Assembly: GCA_022482785.1 (NCBI GenBank)
Contig: JAKVON010000008.1
Span: 1 to 64,000 of the forward strand
DNA length: 64,000 nucleotides
Direction of reading: 5' to 3'
Source of the DNA: Atopobiaceae bacterium
Lineage (GTDB): Bacteria > Actinomycetota > Coriobacteriia > Coriobacteriales > Atopobiaceae
The position numbers were made by a program, and so were the translations under genes. Of the stretch, positions 3,474 to 13,342 are shown piece by piece. The first letter of the stretch is position 1. Each line of letters starts with the position of its first letter. A model generated the notes under the pieces. That model was not told the origin of the DNA and did no database searches. It saw only the letters and a list, made by a program, of their open reading frames with translations.

Positions 3474-3531
3474 GGTCAGCACGACAATCGCTCCAGCGCC
3501 GTCACGCATCGTATTGATGAAAGGGATTCAG

Positions 3532-4200
3532 ATGGCAATCACACCAGCAGACATCGAACAACTCACCTTCTCGCCCTCCAAGCGCGGCTACGACACCGAG
3601 GAGGTCGACGCCTTCCTCGAGCAGCTCTCCGGCGAGGTCGACGCGATGCTCCAGAAGATTGCAGACCTCAAGGGGCGCCTCAATACATCCGAGCAGCAGC
3701 TTGTCGCCTCCGAGGCCCAGGTCGAGCAGCTCCAGGCCCAGCTCTCCGCCGCCCCCCAGGTCTCGCAGGCCACGGTCGCGGACATCTCCGCCCAGCCGGG
3801 CACGACGGCCTCCGAGAAGCAGATCTCCCAGGTGCTCATCGTCGCCCAGCAGAGCGCCGACAAGATCGTCGCCGAGGCGCGCGAGAACGCCGACAAGATC
3901 CGCACCGAGGCGGACACCAAGGCCCGCGAGGTCATCCGCCAGGCCCTCGCCGAGAAGCAGAACGAGCTCGACGAGATCGACCGCCTCAAGCAGTCCCGCG
4001 AGCAGTTCCGCACCGATTACAAGAACCTCATCCAGCGCTTCATGGACGACGCCGACGCCGCCTTCCCCAACCAGGTCCTCTCGACCCCGACGGGTTCCAC
4101 GGGCGTCTCGCAGGCCGCGCCCGCGACGCCGATTCCCGCCGCGCCGGCAGCCCCTGCCCCGGTGGCCAACGCCATCGGCGAGATCGACGACCTCGACTAG
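3532..4200 (+). CDS. divIVA: DivIVA-domain cell-pole/division protein
   Basis: A 222-residue coiled-coil protein. The N-terminal DivIVA membrane-binding motif is clear (ADIEQLTFSPSKRGYDTEEV, then DAFLEQL). Heptad-rich helices cover about residues 25-160, followed by a Pro/Ala-rich tail. DivIVA/Wag31 proteins recognise curved membrane at poles and septa and recruit growth and division partners. I chose the ATG at 3532 (MAITPADIEQ) because it sits about 7 bases after AAAGGG; an ATG at 3517 would add five residues. Its TAG stop overlaps the stop of the convergent gene by two bases. Confidence 0.92.
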   Translation: MAITPADIEQLTFSPSKRGYDTEEVDAFLEQLSGEVDAMLQKIADLKGRLNTSEQQLVASEAQVEQLQAQLSAAPQVSQATVADISAQPGTTASEKQISQVLIVAQQSADKIVAEARENADKIRTEADTKAREVIRQALAEKQNELDEIDRLKQSREQFRTDYKNLIQRFMDDADAAFPNQVLSTPTGSTGVSQAAPATPIPAAPAAPAPVANAIGEIDDLD

Positions 4201-5153
4201 CCCCCTTCCTCCTGCACCGACCTCAAGGACGGGACCGCATCCCCTCGGGATGCGGTCCCGTCCTTCGTCTCCGCGGCCTCGTCGGCCCCTCCCGCATAGC
4301 GCCGCGGAGCCGGTCCGCCCGCGTCGTCGCTCCTGGGATCGAGCTCGACCAGGCCGCCCCAGAAGCGCTTGGGCATCAGCTGGGACCTGAGGTCGTAGCC
4401 GCGCCCCTCGGCCCCCCGCCCGGCGAGCTCGAGCCCGTCGTAGAAGCGCTTCCACATGGCGCGCACGTAGCGCTCGTCGTCTGCGAGGGCGTGCTCGGAC
4501 GCCAGGGCCTCGGCCATGGCGGCGTCGAGGCGGACGGCCTGGGTCTGGTCCCCCTGGTGGAAGACGGCCGTCCCGTGCCGCGGGTCGACCAGGCAGAAGC
4601 GGTCCCGTCCCATGCGCATCGCGAAATGCGCCCCCACGAAGGGCAGGACGTCGGCCTTGGGAGAGAAGACGGACAGGTAGGAGCCGTCTGCGAGGCGCGA
4701 GAAGCGCACGAACTGGCGCATCCTCTCGCACTCGTTCGAGGCGGCGCGAGCGAGGGCGAGGAAGGGGGCCACGTCGGGCTCGGCGCCGAGCGAGCGGACG
4801 CGCGCCCCCTCGCGGAAGGCGACGCGCAGGTAGCGATGGATGGCCTCGGGCGCCTCCCGCGCGTCGCACGCGGCGGCGAGCAGGACCTTCGTGCCGCATG
4901 ACTCCGCGCAGCCGCCCGGGCACGCGCCGCCCCTCGACCTGGGACAGCCTCTCGCGACCTTCCGCTCGTAGCCGGCAAGCACCCTGCGGGCGAGGTCGAC
5001 GTCGGCGGGCGTGGCGAGGGCCGTCTCGTCGAGGCACGGCTGGGCGACCGGGGCCCGGCCGAGCCTCACGCGCGCGGGCGCGACATGGGCGAGGTAGCCG
5101 ATTCCCACGGCGCTGAGGATTCCCTCGGCGTCCCCCTCGCACGCGAGCAGCAC
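4197..5153 (-). CDS. DUF4130/TIGR03915-family putative DNA metabolism protein
   Basis: The product resembles the family that always accompanies the radical SAM protein encoded just upstream, and is thought to act in nucleic-acid modification or repair. Support comes from the N-terminal CEGDAEGILSAVGIGY block (matching the family's YDGSFEGLLTAVFEAY-like start), the central FVRFSRLADGSYLSVFSP block, the HFAMRMG segment, and the C-terminal QLMPKRFWGGLVEL block. I take GTG at 5153 as start (318 aa) because homology begins there. The frame is open to an ATG at 5291, which would overlap the upstream gene by 80 bp and add unmatched sequence. The C-terminal tail is low-complexity and is encoded through the hairpin at 4225-4265. 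The biochemical activity is unproven. Confidence 0.75.
   Translation of the reverse strand: MLLACEGDAEGILSAVGIGYLAHVAPARVRLGRAPVAQPCLDETALATPADVDLARRVLAGYERKVARGCPRSRGGACPGGCAESCGTKVLLAAACDAREAPEAIHRYLRVAFREGARVRSLGAEPDVAPFLALARAASNECERMRQFVRFSRLADGSYLSVFSPKADVLPFVGAHFAMRMGRDRFCLVDPRHGTAVFHQGDQTQAVRLDAAMAEALASEHALADDERYVRAMWKRFYDGLELAGRGAEGRGYDLRSQLMPKRFWGGLVELDPRSDDAGGPAPRRYAGGADEAAETKDGTASRGDAVPSLRSVQEEGG
4225..4265 (+). terminator. Strong hairpin after divIVA, bidirectional in form
   Basis: A perfect 19-bp inverted repeat (4225-4243 and 4247-4265) with a 3-nt loop, 25 bp after the divIVA stop. It looks like an intrinsic terminator, but no T-tract follows on the plus strand. It lies inside the 3' coding part of the convergent gene at 4197-5153. 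Confidence 0.7.
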
Positions 5154-5211
5154 CCTGTCCCCGGTCGCCGCCGCCCTCGCGACCTCGCTCGCGCATGACG
5201 TGACGGCAGCG

Positions 5212-6561
5212 CTAGAAGAACGAGCCCTGGACGTAGTCTGCGGCGCCCTCGCGCTGGCGCCGCGTCTCGTTATAGGCAGAGGCCTTGGCATGCTCCACCA
5301 CCCTCTGCCTGATGAGCTCCCCGTCGAGAGGGGCGTCCGCCTCGCTGCGGCCCGAGCAGGTGACGAAGTGGCGCGCCCTCGCGAGCGTGACCCGCAGCCT
5401 CTTGAGGTCGTCGAAGTCGAGGCCGTGGGCGCGACGTGCCCTCAGGATCCGGCGCGCGCCCACGGGGCCGATCCCCGGCACGCGGAGCAGCTCGCGCTCG
5501 CTGGCCTCGTTCACCTCGAGGGGGAAGAGGTCGATGTGGCGGAGCGCCCAGGCCAGCTTGGGGTCGACGTCGAGGTCGAGCCAGGGCTCCTCGGGGCTCA
5601 CGAGCTCCTCCGGGGCGAAGTCGTAGAAGCGCATGAGCCAGTCGGCCTGGTAGAGCCGATGCTCGCGGCGGAGGGGGACGGGCGTGTCGCGCTCGGGGAG
5701 GCGCCCGTCGTCCATCACGGGGACGTAGGCGGAGAAGAACACGCGCTTGAGCTCGAAGCGCCGGTAGAGGGCATCGGAAAGCCTGAGGACCTGCCGGTCG
5801 TCCTCGGGGCTCGCGCCGACGATGATCTGGGTGGCCTGCCCGGCGGGGGAGAAGGCGCGGGACAGCCCCTCCGCCCCGCCTCTCCTGGCCAGCGTCGACC
5901 CGGGGCCCGGCCGAAGCGCGCCCCCGCCGCGCCTTCGGGACCCCTCCAGGTAGCGCGTGGCGCCCGTCGCGATCGACGATGCGATCTGACCCATCGGGCG
6001 GGTGACGCCGGCGGCGTCCTTGTCGGGGCAGAGCGCGGCCAGCGAGGCGGCGCTGGGAAGCTCGAGGTTGACGCTCAGACGGTCTGCGAGGCGCCCGAGC
6101 GCGTCGACGAGCTCGGGGGAGGTGCCCGGGATGACCTTCGCATGGACGTATCCGTCGAAGAGCAGCTCGTGCCTGAGGACGCGCAGGCACTCGACCATGC
6201 GCTCCGTCGTGGCGTCCGGGGTCCCGATGACGCCCGAGGAGAGGAAGAGGCCCTCGACGTAGTTGCGCCTGTAGAAGTCGAGCGTGAGCTCGGCCAGCTC
6301 TCGCGGGGCGAACGTCGCGCGGGGGCAGGAGTTCCCCCGGCGGTTCACGCAGTAGGCGCAGTCGTAGCTGCAGGCGTTGGACATGAGCACCTTGAGCAGC
6401 GTGACGCACCGGCCGTCGGCCGTGAAGGCATGGCAGCACCCCGCGCCGGTGGCCATGCCGACCCTGCCCGCGACGGGCGCCCTGTTGACCCCAGACGACG
6501 TGCATGCGGCATCGTACTTGGCCGCCTCGGCCAGTATCCCAAGCTTGGATAGGGTATCCAC
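5212..6561 (-). CDS. Putative DNA modification/repair radical SAM protein (TIGR03916-type)
   Basis: This 449-residue radical SAM enzyme has the cluster motif C-X3-C-X2-C at Cys64, Cys68 and Cys71 (CSYDCAYC), an extra CC pair near residue 42, and ELPSAASLAALCPDK. A C-terminal helix-hairpin-helix (about LLRVPGIGPVGARRIL) suits DNA binding. The family is paired across bacteria with TIGR03915-type proteins or uracil-DNA-glycosylase-like domains, as it is here; the reaction is unknown. The GTG start at 6561 is preceded by GGAG. An SOS-box-like sequence 17 bp upstream supports a damage-induced role. It is probably co-transcribed with the gene at 4197-5153. Confidence 0.88.
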   Translation of the reverse strand: MDTLSKLGILAEAAKYDAACTSSGVNRAPVAGRVGMATGAGCCHAFTADGRCVTLLKVLMSNACSYDCAYCVNRRGNSCPRATFAPRELAELTLDFYRRNYVEGLFLSSGVIGTPDATTERMVECLRVLRHELLFDGYVHAKVIPGTSPELVDALGRLADRLSVNLELPSAASLAALCPDKDAAGVTRPMGQIASSIATGATRYLEGSRRRGGGALRPGPGSTLARRGGAEGLSRAFSPAGQATQIIVGASPEDDRQVLRLSDALYRRFELKRVFFSAYVPVMDDGRLPERDTPVPLRREHRLYQADWLMRFYDFAPEELVSPEEPWLDLDVDPKLAWALRHIDLFPLEVNEASERELLRVPGIGPVGARRILRARRAHGLDFDDLKRLRVTLARARHFVTCSGRSEADAPLDGELIRQRVVEHAKASAYNETRRQREGAADYVQGSFF

Positions 6562-6708: not shown

Positions 6709-7104
6709 ATGGACAGGGAGCTTGTGATCGAGCACGTGGCCGATACCTATGGCATCGAGCCCGACTGGCCCTGGGGCGGCACGTACGCCGATTCGTGCGT
6801 CCTTCGCCACCCCGAGAGCCGCACGTGGTTCGGGCTGCTCATGAGCGTGAGGCGCGACAGGCTCGGGCTGAGGGGGGAGGGCCAGGCGGAGATTCTCAAC
6901 GTGAAGTGCGACCCCGACATGGCCTCCGTCGCCCGCGGCGTGGAGGGCGTCATGCCGGCCTATCACATGAACAAGGACAGATGGATATCGATCGTGCTCG
7001 ACGGGAGCGTCCCCGACGAGATGGTGTTCGACCTGCTCGAGCGGAGCTTCGAGCTCACGCGCCCGGCATCCCGCAGGGCAAGAAGGTGCGAAGTGGGCCG
7101 GTAA
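6709..7104 (+). CDS. MmcQ/YjbR-family protein
   Basis: A 131-residue protein of the YjbR/MmcQ (double-wing, CyaY-like fold) family. Typical features are an early GIEPDWPWGG segment, the LMSVRRDRLGL strand, the ILNVKCDPDMA block and the YHMNKDRWISIVLDGSVPDE block. Family members are called DNA-binding-like but their role is unclear. I chose the ATG at 6709 because it gives the family N-terminus and follows GGGGGCAGG; the upstream open frame lacks homology. The last five or six codons overlap the 3' end of the convergent rnpB RNA gene. Confidence 0.82.
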   Translation: MDRELVIEHVADTYGIEPDWPWGGTYADSCVLRHPESRTWFGLLMSVRRDRLGLRGEGQAEILNVKCDPDMASVARGVEGVMPAYHMNKDRWISIVLDGSVPDEMVFDLLERSFELTRPASRRARRCEVGR

Positions 7105-7441
7105 GCCGGGTTCTGTCGTGGACGGCCATTTATCTAGGACCGACGTCGCCGTCGGCCTCGAGCGGGCAACCCGAGCGCGTGCCGGGCCAGCACATGGCGC
7201 TCCTATTTGCCCTTGCTCCGGATGGGGCTTGCCAAGCCGTCGCGTTGCCGCGGCGCTGGTGGTCTCTTACACCACCGTTTCAGCTTTTCCCTTGGCCCCG
7301 AGGGGCCGGTGGGAGTCTTCTTTTCTGCGGCGCTGATCCGTCGGATCTCTCCGCCCGGCCGTTGGCCGGCATCCTGCCCTATGGAGCCCGGACTTTCCTC
7401 ATGGCGCTCTCGCGCCCCGCGGTCGTCTGGCCCACTTCGCA
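7088..7441 (-). ncRNA. rnpB: RNase P RNA (bacterial type A)
   Basis: On the minus strand the sequence has the universal RNase P core, GAGGAAAGTCCGGGCTCC, close to the 5' end (around 7390-7407), and an ATAGGGCAG stretch after it. The terminal P1 helix is formed by 7429-7440 pairing with 7088-7099 (GGCCCACTTCGC with its complement on the plus strand). The length, about 354 nt, is normal. The RNA processes the 5' ends of pre-tRNAs. The 3' end runs into the coding sequence of the convergent YjbR-like gene. Confidence 0.96.
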
Positions 7442-7534: not shown

Positions 7535-8725
7535 ATGATCGGGAGAATGCTCAGGATATGGGCCGTCGGCGAGGGGGACACGACGAGCCCCGCCGAACGC
7601 GTGAGGAGGCATCGTCGCCTCCACCTCGACGACGTCGACGACCTCGCCCCCTGGAAGAGGCGGATGCTGCGCCACTGGCTCCTCGGGACGGCCCTCGTTG
7701 GCGCCGCGCTCATCGTCTTCGCCTGCCTCTGCCTGCGCGATGCCGTGGGGGACGAGCGCGCCGAGTGGTTCGACCAGTCCTCGCCCCAGGTCCAGTCCTG
7801 GCTCTCGACCGCCGACAGGCAGGCGGGGGAGGGCAACGCCACGAGGGTGACGTGCGGGACGTACCTCTCCAACATCTCGTCGATCGACATCGCCGGCACC
7901 GACTTCAACGTCACCATGCAGGTCTGGTTCCGCTGGCAGGGGGACGAGGCCCTCGACATGGCCGACCACTTCACGATCTACAAGGGCATCATCAACTCGC
8001 AGGAGGTGGTCCGGCAGGAGTCCGTCGGCGACACCCACTACCAGCTCGTCCGGCTGAACGTCGACATAAGCAAGGACTTCGACACGAGACGGTTCCCCCT
8101 CGACTCGCACCAGCTCTGCATCTACGTGAAGTCGGCCTATCCCGCGAGCCAGGTCATCTTCGTGCCCGACGTGGAAAACTCCCAAGTCAACGGCGGACTC
8201 TCCACATCCGGCTATGACATCGGCGACGAGACCTGGGGAGAGTCTGCCTACGTGCGCGAATCCAGCGATGGCGCGCCTGGCATCGAGGAGCATCAGGCCA
8301 TGAGCGAGTTCGTCACCGCCGTCACGATTACGAGCAAGGGCTTCGGCACGTTCTTCAAGTGCTTCGTGGCCATGTACGCTACGAGCCTCTGGGTGCTCAT
8401 CATGCTCTACATCTGCGGGAAGGATCGCGTCGATCCCCTCGACATGCTCCCGGACGCCCTGTTCGGCACCGTCGCCAACGTGATGATCGGAGCCGCCCTT
8501 CTGCCCGACGCGCTCTCCTTGGGGCTGCTCGAGTTCGTGAACATGTGGGGCGTCGCGACCGTCCTCATGGCGACCCTTGCCGTCATCCAGATCAACAACA
8601 TCAGGAGCGACTACGGTCAGGCCGACGAGGCGTTCGCCGAGTTCTTCGGCCGTGGGCTGTTCTATGTCATCGCTGCCCTGACGGTCGTGGGCAACGTCGC
8701 CCTTCCCCTCTGCGCGCTCTTGTGA
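7535..8725 (+). CDS. Pentameric ligand-gated-ion-channel-like membrane protein, copy 1
   Basis: A 396-residue protein. It has a basic cytoplasmic N-terminus, one membrane helix (about 48-67), a mostly beta extracytoplasmic domain (about 70-262) and four C-terminal helices (about 274-294, 305-325, 332-354, 373-396). The outer domain carries RRFPLDSHQLCIYV, closely like the FPFD/YPFD motif of prokaryotic Cys-loop channels such as GLIC, then a GYDI strand. The order of beta domain, M1, M2 ending in LLPDA, M3 and M4 matches that superfamily. The N-terminal helix is unusual and may be an uncleaved anchor. There is no Cys loop. The ligand and ion are unknown. The ATG follows GGGGGA. Identification is by pattern recall, not by search. 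Confidence 0.6.
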   Translation: MIGRMLRIWAVGEGDTTSPAERVRRHRRLHLDDVDDLAPWKRRMLRHWLLGTALVGAALIVFACLCLRDAVGDERAEWFDQSSPQVQSWLSTADRQAGEGNATRVTCGTYLSNISSIDIAGTDFNVTMQVWFRWQGDEALDMADHFTIYKGIINSQEVVRQESVGDTHYQLVRLNVDISKDFDTRRFPLDSHQLCIYVKSAYPASQVIFVPDVENSQVNGGLSTSGYDIGDETWGESAYVRESSDGAPGIEEHQAMSEFVTAVTITSKGFGTFFKCFVAMYATSLWVLIMLYICGKDRVDPLDMLPDALFGTVANVMIGAALLPDALSLGLLEFVNMWGVATVLMATLAVIQINNIRSDYGQADEAFAEFFGRGLFYVIAALTVVGNVALPLCALL

Positions 8726-8826
8726 GCGGACAGGCCCGGGCCGTTCGTCGGAGAAAACGGGATGTACCTCGTCCTCTCCTCGGACTCGGCTAGTATCGAA
8801 ACCGGTTCGCGGAAGAAGGGGGACAG

Positions 8827-10119
8827 ATGGCCGACAAGGACGCACCCAAGAAAGCTCAGGACGACGACGCCGTGAAGAAGGAGACGACGACGTTGGGCGT
8901 CAAGGAGCTCCCGGACGATCCCAAGGACTCCAAGGATGCCAAGGGCACCGCCCCCGCGAACGACGGCCTTGCGGCATCGGGCGCCCAGACCCCCCATAAG
9001 CGCCGTCGGCTGAGCGTCCTCGACTTCAAGGACCTTCCGCCCTGGAAGCGCGCCGTCACCATCAAGTGGGCCGTCGCTCTCATCGTGGTGGGGGTCGTCT
9101 TCCTGACGATGGCCTGCGTCACCATGCGCAACTCCGCCCTCACGAACCGCTCCAAGTGGTGGGATCCCAACGAGGAGTGGGTCCAAACGTACAACAAGCG
9201 CGCCGAGTCCCTTGCCGACCAATACGGTGCGACCCACGTCAAGACGGGCACCTACGTCGAGAACATCCGCTCCGTCGACATCAAGAACTGGAAGACCAAC
9301 GTCACCCTGCTCGTCTGGTTCCGCTGGGACGGCGCCGACGACCTCGACATGGTCGACAACTTCAACATCTACCGAGGCATCATCCAGACGAAGGACATCC
9401 TCTCCGAGACGCATGAGAACGGCGTCAACTACCAGCTCGTCAGGGTGAACGTCGACGTGAACAACCAGCTGGGCACGGCGCTCTTCCCGGTCGACACCCA
9501 GCAGGTGCGCATCTTCGTCGAGAGCGAGTACAAGGCCGAGAGGGTGATTCTCGACCCGGACGTCGAGAACTCCACGGTGAACTCCTCGCTCTCCATAGCC
9601 GGCTACGAGATCACCAACACCGAGTGGGGGGAGGCGGCGCATGTCTATAACAGCTCCCAGGGCGACCCCACCGTCACCTCGGCACCCGTCACGAGCGAGT
9701 TCGTGACGGCCCTCACGTTCCGCCGAAACGGACTCGGCCTCTACTTCAAGTGCTTCATCGCCATGTACGGCACCACCCTCTGGGTGCTCATCATGCTCTA
9801 CATCTGCGGTCACCACCGCGTCGACCCCCTGGGCATGATTCCCGGCGCCCTGTTCGGCACCGTCTCGAACATCATGGTGGGCGCCGCCCTGCTCCCGGAT
9901 GCCCTCGACATGGGCCTGCTCGAGTTCGTCAACGTCTGGGGCATCCTCACCATCCTGGCCACCGCTGTCGTCATCATCCAGGTGAACAACATCAGGAGCC
10001 AGTACGGCCGCAAGGACGAGCCCTTCGCGGGCTTCATCGGCCGCGTCATGTTCTACATCATCGCCGTCATAGCCATCGCCGGGAACATCCTGCTCCCTGC
10101 CTTCGCAATGTCCGTCTAG
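8827..10119 (+). CDS. Pentameric ligand-gated-ion-channel-like membrane protein, copy 2
   Basis: A 430-residue paralogue of the preceding gene. A charged Lys/Asp-rich cytoplasmic tail (about 1-75, unlike copy 1) leads to a membrane helix (about 81-102), then the beta domain with VWFRWDG, the FPVDTQQVRIFVESEY motif and TSEFVTA. The pore part is nearly the same as copy 1, including FKCF, LWVLIMLYICG, HRVDPL, ALFGTV, GAALLPDA and LLEFVN, plus a fourth helix at the C-terminus. The conserved pore and variable tail fit a heteromeric or separately regulated channel pair. The start is preceded by AGAAGGGGGACAG. The next gene begins 8 bp after the stop, so co-transcription is likely. Confidence 0.6.
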   Translation: MADKDAPKKAQDDDAVKKETTTLGVKELPDDPKDSKDAKGTAPANDGLAASGAQTPHKRRRLSVLDFKDLPPWKRAVTIKWAVALIVVGVVFLTMACVTMRNSALTNRSKWWDPNEEWVQTYNKRAESLADQYGATHVKTGTYVENIRSVDIKNWKTNVTLLVWFRWDGADDLDMVDNFNIYRGIIQTKDILSETHENGVNYQLVRVNVDVNNQLGTALFPVDTQQVRIFVESEYKAERVILDPDVENSTVNSSLSIAGYEITNTEWGEAAHVYNSSQGDPTVTSAPVTSEFVTALTFRRNGLGLYFKCFIAMYGTTLWVLIMLYICGHHRVDPLGMIPGALFGTVSNIMVGAALLPDALDMGLLEFVNVWGILTILATAVVIIQVNNIRSQYGRKDEPFAGFIGRVMFYIIAVIAIAGNILLPAFAMSV

Positions 10120-10127
10120 GAGACCAT

Positions 10128-11558
10128 ATGCCCACGCTTGACGCCATCAAGAACAAGGCCATCGAGGCCGCCCTCATGAAGTCGACCGACATGCTCATCG
10201 ACGACTTCGACAAGAACATGCCGCGCGTCCTCACCACGGTGAGCAGGTTCGCCGGCATGGGGGACACCGTGAACGACCACCAGCTCCAGCTGTTCAACAA
10301 GGTGGCCACGATGCTCGAGGACAAGGACAACAACTGGCGCCAGCTCGTCGACAAGGTGCGCGGATGCGACCGCGACATGGTGCGGCTGTTCGTGCGGAAC
10401 TTCTTCATGAACTCGGTCGTCGCCGGCGGCAACCGCCAGCGTCAGATCAACGCCGAGTACGACTGCAACTGCCCGTGGGCCATCCTCATGGATCCCACCA
10501 CGGCCTGCAACCTCCACTGCACCGGCTGCTGGGCCTCCCACTACGAGGACGCCAAGCACAAGAGCCTCACCTACGAGGAGCTCGACTCCATCATCTGCCA
10601 GGGCAAGGAGCTCGGCACCTACGTCTACCTCTACACGGGCGGCGAGCCCATGGTGCGCAAGGCCGACCTCATCCGCCTGTGCGAGAAGCACCAGGACTGC
10701 ATCTTCTCTGCCTTCACCAACGGCACGCTCGTGGACGACAAGTTCGCCGACGAGCTCGTGCGCGTGAAGAACTTCATCCCCGCCTTCTCGATCGAGGGCT
10801 TCCGCGAGGCGACGGACTCCCGTCGCGGCGAGGGCACGTTCGACAAGGTGGTCGCCGCGATGGATCGCCTGCGCGAGCGCAACCTGCCGTTCGGGGCTTC
10901 GATCTGCTACACGAGCCAGAACTACGACTCGATCACCTCCGACGAGTTCATCGACTTCCTCGAGGAGAAGGGCGTGCTCTTCGCCTGGATCTTCACGTAC
11001 ATGCCGGTGGGCCAGGGTGCCCCCGTGGAGCTGCTCGCCACCGACGAGCAGCGCGCAGGGATGTACCACAAGGTGCGCGACGACTGGCGCAACAACCGCC
11101 CCATCTTCTTCGCCGACTTCTGGAACGACGGCGAGTACACGGGCGGCTGCATCGCGGGTGGCAGGCGCTACATGCACATCAACGCCGGCGGCGACATCGA
11201 GCCCTGCGCCTTCATCCACTACTCCGACTGCAACATCCGCGAGAAGACCCTGCTCGAGTGCTACCAGTCGCCGCTGTTCAAGAGCTACCGCGCGCATCAG
11301 CCCTTCAACAAGAACATGCTGCGTCCCTGCCCGCTCCTCGACAATCCTGGCATGCTGGCCACGATGGTCGACGAGACGGGCGCCCATTCCACCGACTACA
11401 CCCACCCGGAGGACGTCCACGAGCTGTGCGGCAAGACCGTGAAGGTGGCCGAGAAGTGGGCCGAGACCTCGCAGCCCATCTGGGAGAACTCCCCCAAGGG
11501 CAAGTGGGTGGCCAACCTCGAGAACGAGGGCAAGGATCCCGTCGGCTGGGTGGACTAG
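10128..11558 (+). CDS. Radical SAM protein with SPASM-like C-terminus
   Basis: A 476-residue radical SAM enzyme. The cluster motif C-X3-C-X2-C is Cys127, Cys131 and Cys134 (CNLHCTGC), followed by the GGEP motif (YTGGEPMV) and a standard SAM barrel. The C-terminal part has further cysteines in GGDIEPCAFIHYSDCNI and MLRPCPLLDNP, as in SPASM/twitch auxiliary-cluster domains. The substrate cannot be told from sequence, and no precursor peptide is seen next to it. The ATG follows TAGGAGA and lies 8 bp after the second channel-like gene, so the three genes look like one operon. Confidence 0.82.
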   Translation: MPTLDAIKNKAIEAALMKSTDMLIDDFDKNMPRVLTTVSRFAGMGDTVNDHQLQLFNKVATMLEDKDNNWRQLVDKVRGCDRDMVRLFVRNFFMNSVVAGGNRQRQINAEYDCNCPWAILMDPTTACNLHCTGCWASHYEDAKHKSLTYEELDSIICQGKELGTYVYLYTGGEPMVRKADLIRLCEKHQDCIFSAFTNGTLVDDKFADELVRVKNFIPAFSIEGFREATDSRRGEGTFDKVVAAMDRLRERNLPFGASICYTSQNYDSITSDEFIDFLEEKGVLFAWIFTYMPVGQGAPVELLATDEQRAGMYHKVRDDWRNNRPIFFADFWNDGEYTGGCIAGGRRYMHINAGGDIEPCAFIHYSDCNIREKTLLECYQSPLFKSYRAHQPFNKNMLRPCPLLDNPGMLATMVDETGAHSTDYTHPEDVHELCGKTVKVAEKWAETSQPIWENSPKGKWVANLENEGKDPVGWVD

Positions 11559-11575: not shown

Positions 11576-11698
11576 GCGACCCCCACGAATGCCGTCTGCG
11601 ACCACCAGCCAGCAGCAATCGCATGCCATGCCGCACCCCTCCATATCTAACGCGATAGGTATGATAGAATCGGCGTTAGATATGGGAGGTGGAGAATG
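11576..11698 (+). repeat. Dispersed 120-bp regulatory repeat, copy 1
   Basis: This segment and 23133-23254 align along their whole length of about 122 bp, ending at an ATG in both. The first 55 bp are most similar (for example CAATCGCATGCCATG). The second half, around GCGATAGGTA, is more diverged. Copy 1 sits directly upstream of the ATP-binding regulator gene at 11696. Confidence 0.7.
11641..11685. promoter_or_regulatory. Perfect inverted repeat, probable operator of the adjacent regulator
   Basis: Arms of 13 bp (CCATATCTAACGC at 11641-11653 and its exact complement at 11673-11685) flank a 19-bp spacer that contains the -10-like TATGAT/TAGAAT. It ends 10 bp before the ATG at 11696. The layout suits autoregulation by the encoded protein, which has a C-terminal winged-helix-like region. 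This is inference. Confidence 0.5.
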
Positions 11699-13174
11699 GA
11701 CCTGACGGAGAGCGAGACATGCGAGCTCAAGCGCGAGTACTCCTCGGGCGTGCCCAAGGAGGTCGTCGCCCTTCTGAACACCCACGGCGGAACGATCTAT
11801 CTCGGCGTGGAAGACGATGGCGACCTCGTCGGGGTCGACTCGCCCGATGAAGCCATGCTTCGCGTGGACAATGCGGTGCGTGATGCCATAAACCCCGATG
11901 CGACTCTCTTCGTCTCGACCTCGGTCGAGGTTCAGGGTGGGGTGCCTCTGGTCGTCGTCGCCGTGGGAGAGGGGGCCAAGAAGCCATACTACCTCTCTGC
12001 CAAGGGGCTCCGCCCCGAAGGCGTGTACGTCCGTCACGGGGCCTCCTCGGTTCCCGCGAGCGATTCCGCGATTCGGAGGATGGTCGGAGAGACGGACGGG
12101 GATTCCTTCGAGTCCATGCGCTCGCTTGTGCAGGAGCTTACCTTTGCGAAGGCCGGGGAGGTCTTCGAGGCGCGCGGCCTCGTTCTCGGCCCCGCCCAGA
12201 TGCGCACGCTCGGGCTCGTCACTCCCGACGGCCTCTACACGAACCTCGCCCTCCTCCTCTCCGACCAATGCCCTCACGCCATCAAGGCAGCGTGGTTCGA
12301 GGGAACATCCGAGCACTTCTCGTTTCGCGACCGCGCGGAGTTCACCGGCTCGCTGCTCGCCCAGCTCGAGGATGCCTACAGGTACCTCGACCAGCTCAAT
12401 CGTCTCGAATCGACCGTGAGGGGGCTCGAGCGCGTTGACGCTCGCGACTACCCAGACGAAGCGCTGCGCGAGGCTCTCGTCAACTCGATCGTCCATCGCG
12501 ACTATTCGACGGGCGCGCCGGTCCTCCTCAAGCTCTTCGACGACGAGCTGCAGGTCGTGAACGTCGGAGGGCTGATGAAGGGCATCGAGGTCGAAGACAT
12601 CATGCAGGGGATCTCGTGCGCCAGGAATCCCAGGCTTGCCAACGTCCTCTATCGGCTTTCGCTCGTTGAGGCCTATGGCACGGGAATGGCGAGGATATTC
12701 GGCTCCTACCGTTTCGATGACCTCCGGCCATCCCTCGGATGTGCGCATAACTCGTTCGTCGTGAGGCTGCCGAACAGGAACGCGCCGGTCCGCGGAGGGT
12801 CGCATGGTGCGGAGGCGTCGGCAAATGCCTTTCGCATGGTGAGTGGTCGCGTCGATGATGCCCCCACCGCCACGTCCGAGAGCACGGGCCGTCCCTATCT
12901 GAGGAGCAGGACGGAGCTCGGAGAGCCGTCCCCCCTCAATGCCGTCAATGGCGCTGCCAGCGTCCGCGATGCCGTTGCGACGTTTGACCCCTCGGACATC
13001 GAGCGAACGGTGAGATTCGTCGAATCGAAAGGCTCCGTCTCCCGCAGGCAGGTCGAGGACCTTCTCGGCGTCAAGCAGACGACTGCGGGAAAACTCCTGC
13101 GCGAACTCGTCGACTCGGATGTCCTCGTGCGGAACGGCCGTGGCCCGCAGACGCGCTACCGACTCATGGGGTAG
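11696..13174 (+). CDS. AlbA_2/Schlafen-domain ATP-binding transcriptional regulator-like protein
   Basis: A 492-residue protein. Residues about 1-125 form an AlbA_2 (divergent AAA-4/Schlafen-like) domain: ESETCELKREY, then NTHGGTIYLGVEDDG. A HATPase_c_4-type region follows (ALREALVNSIVHRDYS, VNVGGLMKGIE, NPRLANVL and EAYGTGMARI). The C-terminus (about 430-492) reads as a winged helix (VSRRQVEDLLGVKQTTAGKLLREL). Such proteins are often annotated as transcriptional regulators or ATP-dependent helicase-like proteins, and some act with toxin-antitoxin or stress systems. The ATG follows GGAGGTGGAGA. The inverted repeat just upstream suggests self-control. The target is unknown. Confidence 0.78.
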   Translation: MDLTESETCELKREYSSGVPKEVVALLNTHGGTIYLGVEDDGDLVGVDSPDEAMLRVDNAVRDAINPDATLFVSTSVEVQGGVPLVVVAVGEGAKKPYYLSAKGLRPEGVYVRHGASSVPASDSAIRRMVGETDGDSFESMRSLVQELTFAKAGEVFEARGLVLGPAQMRTLGLVTPDGLYTNLALLLSDQCPHAIKAAWFEGTSEHFSFRDRAEFTGSLLAQLEDAYRYLDQLNRLESTVRGLERVDARDYPDEALREALVNSIVHRDYSTGAPVLLKLFDDELQVVNVGGLMKGIEVEDIMQGISCARNPRLANVLYRLSLVEAYGTGMARIFGSYRFDDLRPSLGCAHNSFVVRLPNRNAPVRGGSHGAEASANAFRMVSGRVDDAPTATSESTGRPYLRSRTELGEPSPLNAVNGAASVRDAVATFDPSDIERTVRFVESKGSVSRRQVEDLLGVKQTTAGKLLRELVDSDVLVRNGRGPQTRYRLMG

Positions 13175-13342
13175 CGCGGGTGCGAACCTCCACGGGGAGG
13201 CGGGAGGCTCATAAGATGACGCCCGTCGTGTCTTCGAGAGAAAGACGATGCGCATTTATCGCAAGTATTCTCTACGACGGTACGATTTTGCACCGCCAGC
13301 GTAATCACTCAAGAATCTCGGTGCTCATTATTCTAAAAAGCG
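13175..13342. other. Intergenic region without recognised gene
   Basis: This stretch is more AT-rich than its surroundings. I see no gene or RNA in it. Together with the promoter and leader that follow, it makes up the 384-bp gap before the PTS gene at 13559. Confidence 0.5.

Follow-up and report, generated by a model that had tools for sequence, protein, structure and literature searches.

A tandem pair of divergent, predicted pentameric ligand-gated channel subunits beside a radical SAM/SPASM gene in an Atopobiaceae bacterium

Organization of the locus

The DNA analysed here (hereafter the window) is a stretch of 64,000 nt from an Atopobiaceae bacterium, a gut-type relative of Olsenella/Atopobium (assembly GCA_022482785.1, contig JAKVON010000008.1, positions 1 to 64,000), in which three consecutive genes lie on the forward strand. 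The first two, ch1 (7535-8725, 396 aa) and ch2 (8827-10119, 430 aa), encode putative paralogous subunits of a divergent pentameric ligand-gated (pro-loop) channel, and the third (10128-11558, 476 aa), hereafter rSAM, encodes a radical S-adenosylmethionine (SAM)/SPASM protein with the motif CxxxCxxC in the context TACNLHCTGCW. ch1 is separated from ch2 by 101 bp, and ch2 from rSAM by only 8 bp. A first-pass annotation of the window, made from the sequence alone, had described the trio as an apparent operon of two channel-like proteins and a radical SAM enzyme, and the positions and lengths of its open reading frames, the 8-bp gap and the FP(L/V)D motifs all proved correct. Given the 8-bp gap, co-transcription of ch2 and rSAM is possible; promoter and terminator scans of the ch1, ch2 and rSAM intervals gave matches at chance level only.

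ch1 and ch2 share 47-49% identity, and counterparts of both, at 91-92% protein identity, are found on another contig of this assembly (C24). Against the C24 copies, the ratio of nonsynonymous to synonymous substitution rates (dN/dS) is about 0.1 for ch1, 0.2 for ch2 and 0.1 for rSAM. The mutual similarity, the counterparts on C24 and the low dN/dS values indicate that ch1 and ch2 are real genes. In a phylogenetic tree the two proteins sit on separate long branches, and the tree does not date the duplication.

Homology to pentameric channels

Cys-loop-type channels, with which nerve cells sense neurotransmitters, are distant relatives of ch1 and ch2. The first-pass annotation had recognized the two proteins as pentameric-channel-like from motifs, an identification upheld by a family profile, by Pfam through an Azospirillum homolog, by AlphaFold models compared with Foldseek and by signature residues, so that homology to this superfamily is well supported by both sequence comparison and modelling. 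A single-sequence phmmer search with ch2 against the PDB returned weak unrelated matches only, and a family profile was needed. When a profile of ten family sequences was compared with all PDB sequences, the best match was the Gloeobacter violaceus proton-gated channel, GLIC (E=7e-6), and all 60 of the matches shown, out of 90, were GLIC or GLIC chimeras (E=7e-6 to 2.5e-4). The alignment with GLIC spans the extracellular domain (ECD) and runs through the pro-loop.

The Pfam model Neur_chan_LBD matches 5 of the 10 family members (best E=8.3e-6), with E-values of 7e-5 for ch2 and 0.23 for ch1. A homolog from Azospirillum brasilense, found by tblastn with ch2 (E=2e-24), clears the cut-off of this model (32 bits versus 26), and thereby closes the chain of homology from ch2 to the Pfam family. 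A DUF4436-like family, considered for its combination of FPxD and helices, was rejected, since none of the members matched it in Pfam. A search of 149 genomes of the phylum for canonical Neur_chan_LBD genes gave no match, but the controls were silent too and the result therefore has no bearing on their absence.

Predicted fold and architecture

The AlphaFold models of ch1 (pLDDT 74.5, predicted TM-score (pTM) 0.58) and ch2 (pLDDT 70.7, pTM 0.56) both consist of one helix followed by about ten strands and then four helices. The arrangement of a beta domain followed by four helices had been correctly anticipated in the first-pass annotation, which had made no mention of the additional preceding helix. 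Comparison with GLIC had been suggested there as a check, and both single-chain models were predicted to have a GLIC-type fold rather than a different one: the top Foldseek match in the PDB was GLIC or a GLIC chimera (E=2.3e-13 for ch1 and 1.3e-13 for ch2), with TM-scores of 0.65-0.67 on the target and 14-17% identity over 310-330 columns covering both domains.

In ch1, a cytosolic N-terminal tail would be followed by a first transmembrane helix, named hereafter TM0 (aa ~49-67), the ECD (~84-267) and helices M1-M4 (~271-395), and in ch2 a tail of about 80 aa by TM0 (~82-100), the ECD (~117-300) and M1-M4 (~304-429). A hydrophobic TM0 helix precedes the ECD in all full-length Coriobacteriia members, and the tail ahead of it comprises about 30-165 residues, is poorly conserved and is largely of low confidence in the two modelled proteins. 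The likely topology is that the tail is inside and both the ECD and the C-terminus are outside, with five membrane helices per subunit. An Ala-Cys pair near the outer end of TM0 (ch1 aa ~66-67, ch2 ~98-99) is conserved in most Coriobacteriia members, and its Cys is possibly a lipidation or disulfide site. Lipoprotein anchoring at this residue is made less likely by the long N-terminal region and a poor lipobox.

Signature residues and predicted pore

Judged against the signature table of Jaiteh et al. (PMC4795631, Table 1), the residues that characterize the superfamily are, from the alignments, mostly present in ch1 and ch2. The pro-loop motif F/YPxD, in which Pro occurs in 100% and Asp in 93% of the superfamily (PMC4795631, Table 1), corresponds to FPLD in ch1 (F187-D190) and FPVD in ch2 (F220-D223); FP is invariant across the family, and Asp is replaced by S, A or E in some relatives. 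The pre-M1 arginine, found in 94% of the superfamily (PMC4795631), is R300 in ch2 and has an equivalent in most relatives, one residue off the canonical spacing as judged by eye, and ch1 has S-K instead. The beta9 aromatic residue (W/F/Y) is also present, the profile alignment to GLIC pairing the Y of GYDI/GYEI with its GW. The M2-M3 loop proline (88% of the superfamily; PMC4795631) is found in LLPDAL in ch1 and ch2, and is lost in four closely related members from Lapin metagenome-assembled genomes (MAGs).

Within M2, Phe is invariant in the Coriobacteriia clade at 9', a position whose superfamily signature is Leu or Phe (Phe in 13%). The basic residue at 0' is retained as Arg in the homologs of A. 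brasilense and of genomes G701 and G635, exactly nine residues ahead of F9', and this spacing fixes the register of M2 without recourse to a structure. Position -1' is D or N across the clade. The M2 sequence DPLDMLPDALF of ch1 thus places Asp at predicted positions 2' and 6', and DPLGMIPGALF of ch2 places Gly at both. Small residues occupy 2' and 6' throughout the clade except in ch1, and both Asp residues recur in the C24 counterpart of ch1. The acidic positions of ch1 and the small residues of ch2 would predict a difference in permeation.

Distribution of the family

Matches to the channel family were found in 12 of 398 genomes of the class, two of which (G243, G408) are weak and partial (E 1e-4 to 1e-5); ten remain after their removal, that of the window included, and a broader sample of the phylum contributes one more (G701). 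The named records are MAGs of Atopobiaceae and Eggerthellaceae. The clade of ch1 and ch2 is unannotated and sporadic, and occurs mainly in these two families, such sporadic occurrence being typical of prokaryotic pentameric ligand-gated ion channels (pLGICs; PMC549065, PMC4795631). More distant homologs are encoded on Azospirillum and Streptomyces plasmids, and are labelled hypothetical where annotated.

Proposed function and alternative readings

We consider it probable that ch1 and ch2 are pLGIC subunits of the GLIC/ELIC type, pentameric around M2, with rSAM not acting as a dedicated maturase. This reading is built on homology, fold prediction and gene order, from which pentameric assembly, topology, ion selectivity and ligand gating are inferred. 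Each subunit would be held in the membrane by the uncleaved N-terminal TM0, with its disordered tail in the cytosol, the extracellular beta-sandwich serving as sensor and the four-helix domain as pore, five subunits being arranged around M2. As in known members of the superfamily, the beta domain may respond to pH or bind a small ligand from outside the cell, with the FPxD loop relaying this signal so that the pore opens at its gate, Phe 9'. Cation selectivity is suggested by the acidic position conserved at -1'. ch1 is acidic at 2' and 6' and probably alters permeation, whether it forms a second homomer or mixes with ch2. rSAM would be an older resident of the locus, maybe co-transcribed with ch2.

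Several observations weigh against this reading. Neither ch1 nor ch2 reaches the curated Neur_chan_LBD cut-off as a single protein. The M1 proline at 14', which is not universal (77% of the superfamily; PMC4795631), is absent from every Coriobacteriia member, and the 0' arginine, at a position that is basic in 79% of the superfamily (PMC4795631), is replaced by P, T or A in the Coriobacteriia clade. The structural models were built from 9 sequences, with pLDDT 71-75, pTM 0.56-0.58 and TM-scores to GLIC of only 0.50-0.67, and cover single chains; moreover, AlphaFold was trained on GLIC. In view of this moderate confidence and of the exposure to GLIC, the models are supporting evidence rather than independent proof.

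A tentative extension is a ligand-gated heteropentamer built from both ch1 and ch2, in which the acidic 2' and 6' rings of ch1 would reset permeation, e.g. towards divalent cations, and TM0 with the cytosolic tail would add a fifth helix to each subunit. Bacterial members have been taken as likely homopentamers because most genomes contain one gene (PMC549065). Since the tandem subunits differ in their predicted pore linings, the question of whether bacteria have heteromeric channels becomes directly testable here.

It is rather unlikely that the two proteins have a pLGIC fold but do not conduct, acting instead as membrane sensors that signal via TM0 and the cytosolic tail, the pore being degenerate. 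The loss of R0' and of the M1 proline, a predicted pore lined by small residues and the occurrence of a cytosolic tail before TM0 in all full-length Coriobacteriia members would fit such a role; however, ch1 and ch2 retain M2, the M2-M3 proline and the Phe 9' gate, and the tails are neither well conserved nor confidently modelled.

The radical SAM gene and the history of the locus

The rSAM protein contains a radical SAM domain (PF04055, E=1.5e-18) and a SPASM domain (PF13186, E=1.1e-4), and reached no equivalog cut-off in NCBIfam. The first-pass annotation knew of no described pairing of such channels with a radical SAM enzyme, and none of the papers in the collection searched pairs them. Its proposal of a functional pairing would make rSAM an enzyme devoted to modifying the channel or to producing its ligand or peptide. 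In favour of this are the 8-bp gap, the shared strand, the conservation of the trio on C24 (counterparts about 92% identical) and a single channel gene next to rSAM in one other genome (G020). Comparison of relatives did not bear the proposal out, as rSAM and channel occur apart in most genomes. Some rSAM match is present in 357 of 396 genomes of the class, and a strong one in well over a hundred. Close orthologs (66-78% identical) occur in about 20 genomes, of which only that of the window and G020 also have the channel; the remaining orthologs, in about 18 genomes, are 66-74% identical.

Conversely, among the ten other channel-bearing genomes, rSAM is adjacent in one (G020), and at least 8 of the 10 lack an rSAM ortholog in the sequence around the channel. 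No adjacent ortholog was seen in G011, G012, G014, G016, G272, G402 and G701, some of whose contigs are short, and in G336 the contig ends 0.9 kb past the channel, so that adjacency is not readable there. The neighbourhood comparison that the first-pass annotation had called for found the trio conserved only in this assembly, so that the functional pairing fails the refutation criterion which that annotation had itself set. The dedicated, conserved linkage to a substrate gene that would mark a maturase of the kind acting on ribosomally synthesized and post-translationally modified peptides (RiPPs) was not found. On gene order, rSAM as a dedicated channel partner was rejected as a candidate, and we regard such a role as very improbable; rSAM is better described as a positional neighbour and is probably an older resident of the locus. 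This negative result matters: on comparison with relatives, the close spacing of the three genes looks like an accident of position.

The locus itself contains two landmarks of a conserved DivIVA-RNase P-rSAM-YigZ region, namely DivIVA (3529-4200, forward strand) and the class A RNase P RNA (7086-7438, reverse strand), the latter just upstream of ch1 and on the opposite strand. In two channel-less genomes (G050, G034) the order is SepF, DivIVA, RNase P RNA, rSAM, YigZ, and in two others (G052, G033), on shorter contigs, it is RNase P RNA, rSAM, YigZ, again without a channel. G020 has its single channel gene between RNase P RNA and rSAM, followed by YigZ, i.e. at the ancestral locus, and G019 has a channel at the same spot with no rSAM ortholog following it (none above ~51% identity). 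Since channel-less relatives have rSAM flanked by RNase P RNA and YigZ, the rSAM locus seems to predate the arrival of the channel. In the simplest history, a channel gene would have entered the gap between RNase P RNA and a pre-existing rSAM, and a duplication in the lineage of the window would have given the tandem pair. No relative was found among the IMG/VR viral contigs scanned, which leaves a phage origin of the channel insertion without support.

Contig C24 (L022) is colinear with window positions 7751-29473 at about 92-93% DNA identity, except for the segment of a SLFN_AlbA_2 gene (11690-13214) and a few smaller pieces. Given this colinearity, C24 more probably represents a related strain than a second locus; this suggests that such a strain was binned into the assembly, or that a large duplication occurred. 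The exceptional gene, which combines SLFN_AlbA_2 with HATPase_c_4 (11696-13174) and lies beside rSAM, is present in the window and not on C24, and thus reflects a recent insertion or loss. Upstream, beyond RNase P RNA, lie a YjbR-family gene, a radical SAM gene of family TIGR03916, a TIGR03915 family protein and DivIVA. The TIGR03915/TIGR03916 pair (4197-6561, reverse strand), a putative DNA modification/repair radical SAM system, also occupies this position in G020 (L017).

Comparison with known channels

That ch1 and ch2 might not be channels at all, but members of some other membrane family with a beta domain, four helices and a chance FPxD, is barely credible, because profile, transitive and fold evidence all indicate pLGICs and no other family, even though neither protein has a Pfam match above the curated cut-off. 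The closest known structure by both profile and fold is GLIC, which shares the extracellular beta-sandwich with an F/YPxD pro-loop, the four helices, the M2-M3 proline and a bulky 9' residue and, given the one-residue offset in ch2 and S-K in ch1, possibly the pre-M1 basic residue. Identity with GLIC in the structural alignment is only 14-17%, however, and ch1 and ch2 differ from it and other prokaryotic pLGICs in having TM0 and a cytosolic tail where those have a cleaved signal peptide, in lacking the M1 proline and the basic 0' residue and in being tandem paralogs. DeCLIC, which was among the Foldseek matches, is likewise a pLGIC of prokaryotes that is extended at its N-terminus, but its extra domains are periplasmic and folded (PMC9897478, PMC12664993), whereas the extension of ch1 and ch2 would be a single membrane helix with a disordered tail.

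Prokaryotic pentameric channels have been inventoried in many taxa, with a biological role known for none (PMC4795631). The present branch adds a predicted five-helix architecture, a divergent pore and a tandem two-subunit case with differing predicted pore linings. Current family models miss this branch, and it is the 'hypothetical protein' members in Azospirillum and Streptomyces that tie it to the superfamily: together with homologs in other Actinomycetota they share the same ECD and transmembrane motifs and match ch2 directly (E to 7e-25). The Azospirillum homolog differs in having a short signal-peptide-like start instead of TM0 and in keeping R0' in M2, and Azospirillum sp. B510 has no immediately adjacent tandem partner in the loci inspected. 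On plasmid pAB510b of this strain, a divergent pLGIC homolog lies directly before genes for CheW and a methyl-accepting chemotaxis protein (L103:3785-6305), a neighbourhood that fits the chemoreceptor role proposed by Tasneem et al. (PMC549065). The same plasmid carries another homolog (L101:3857-4897), about 18 kb from this chemotaxis-linked copy.

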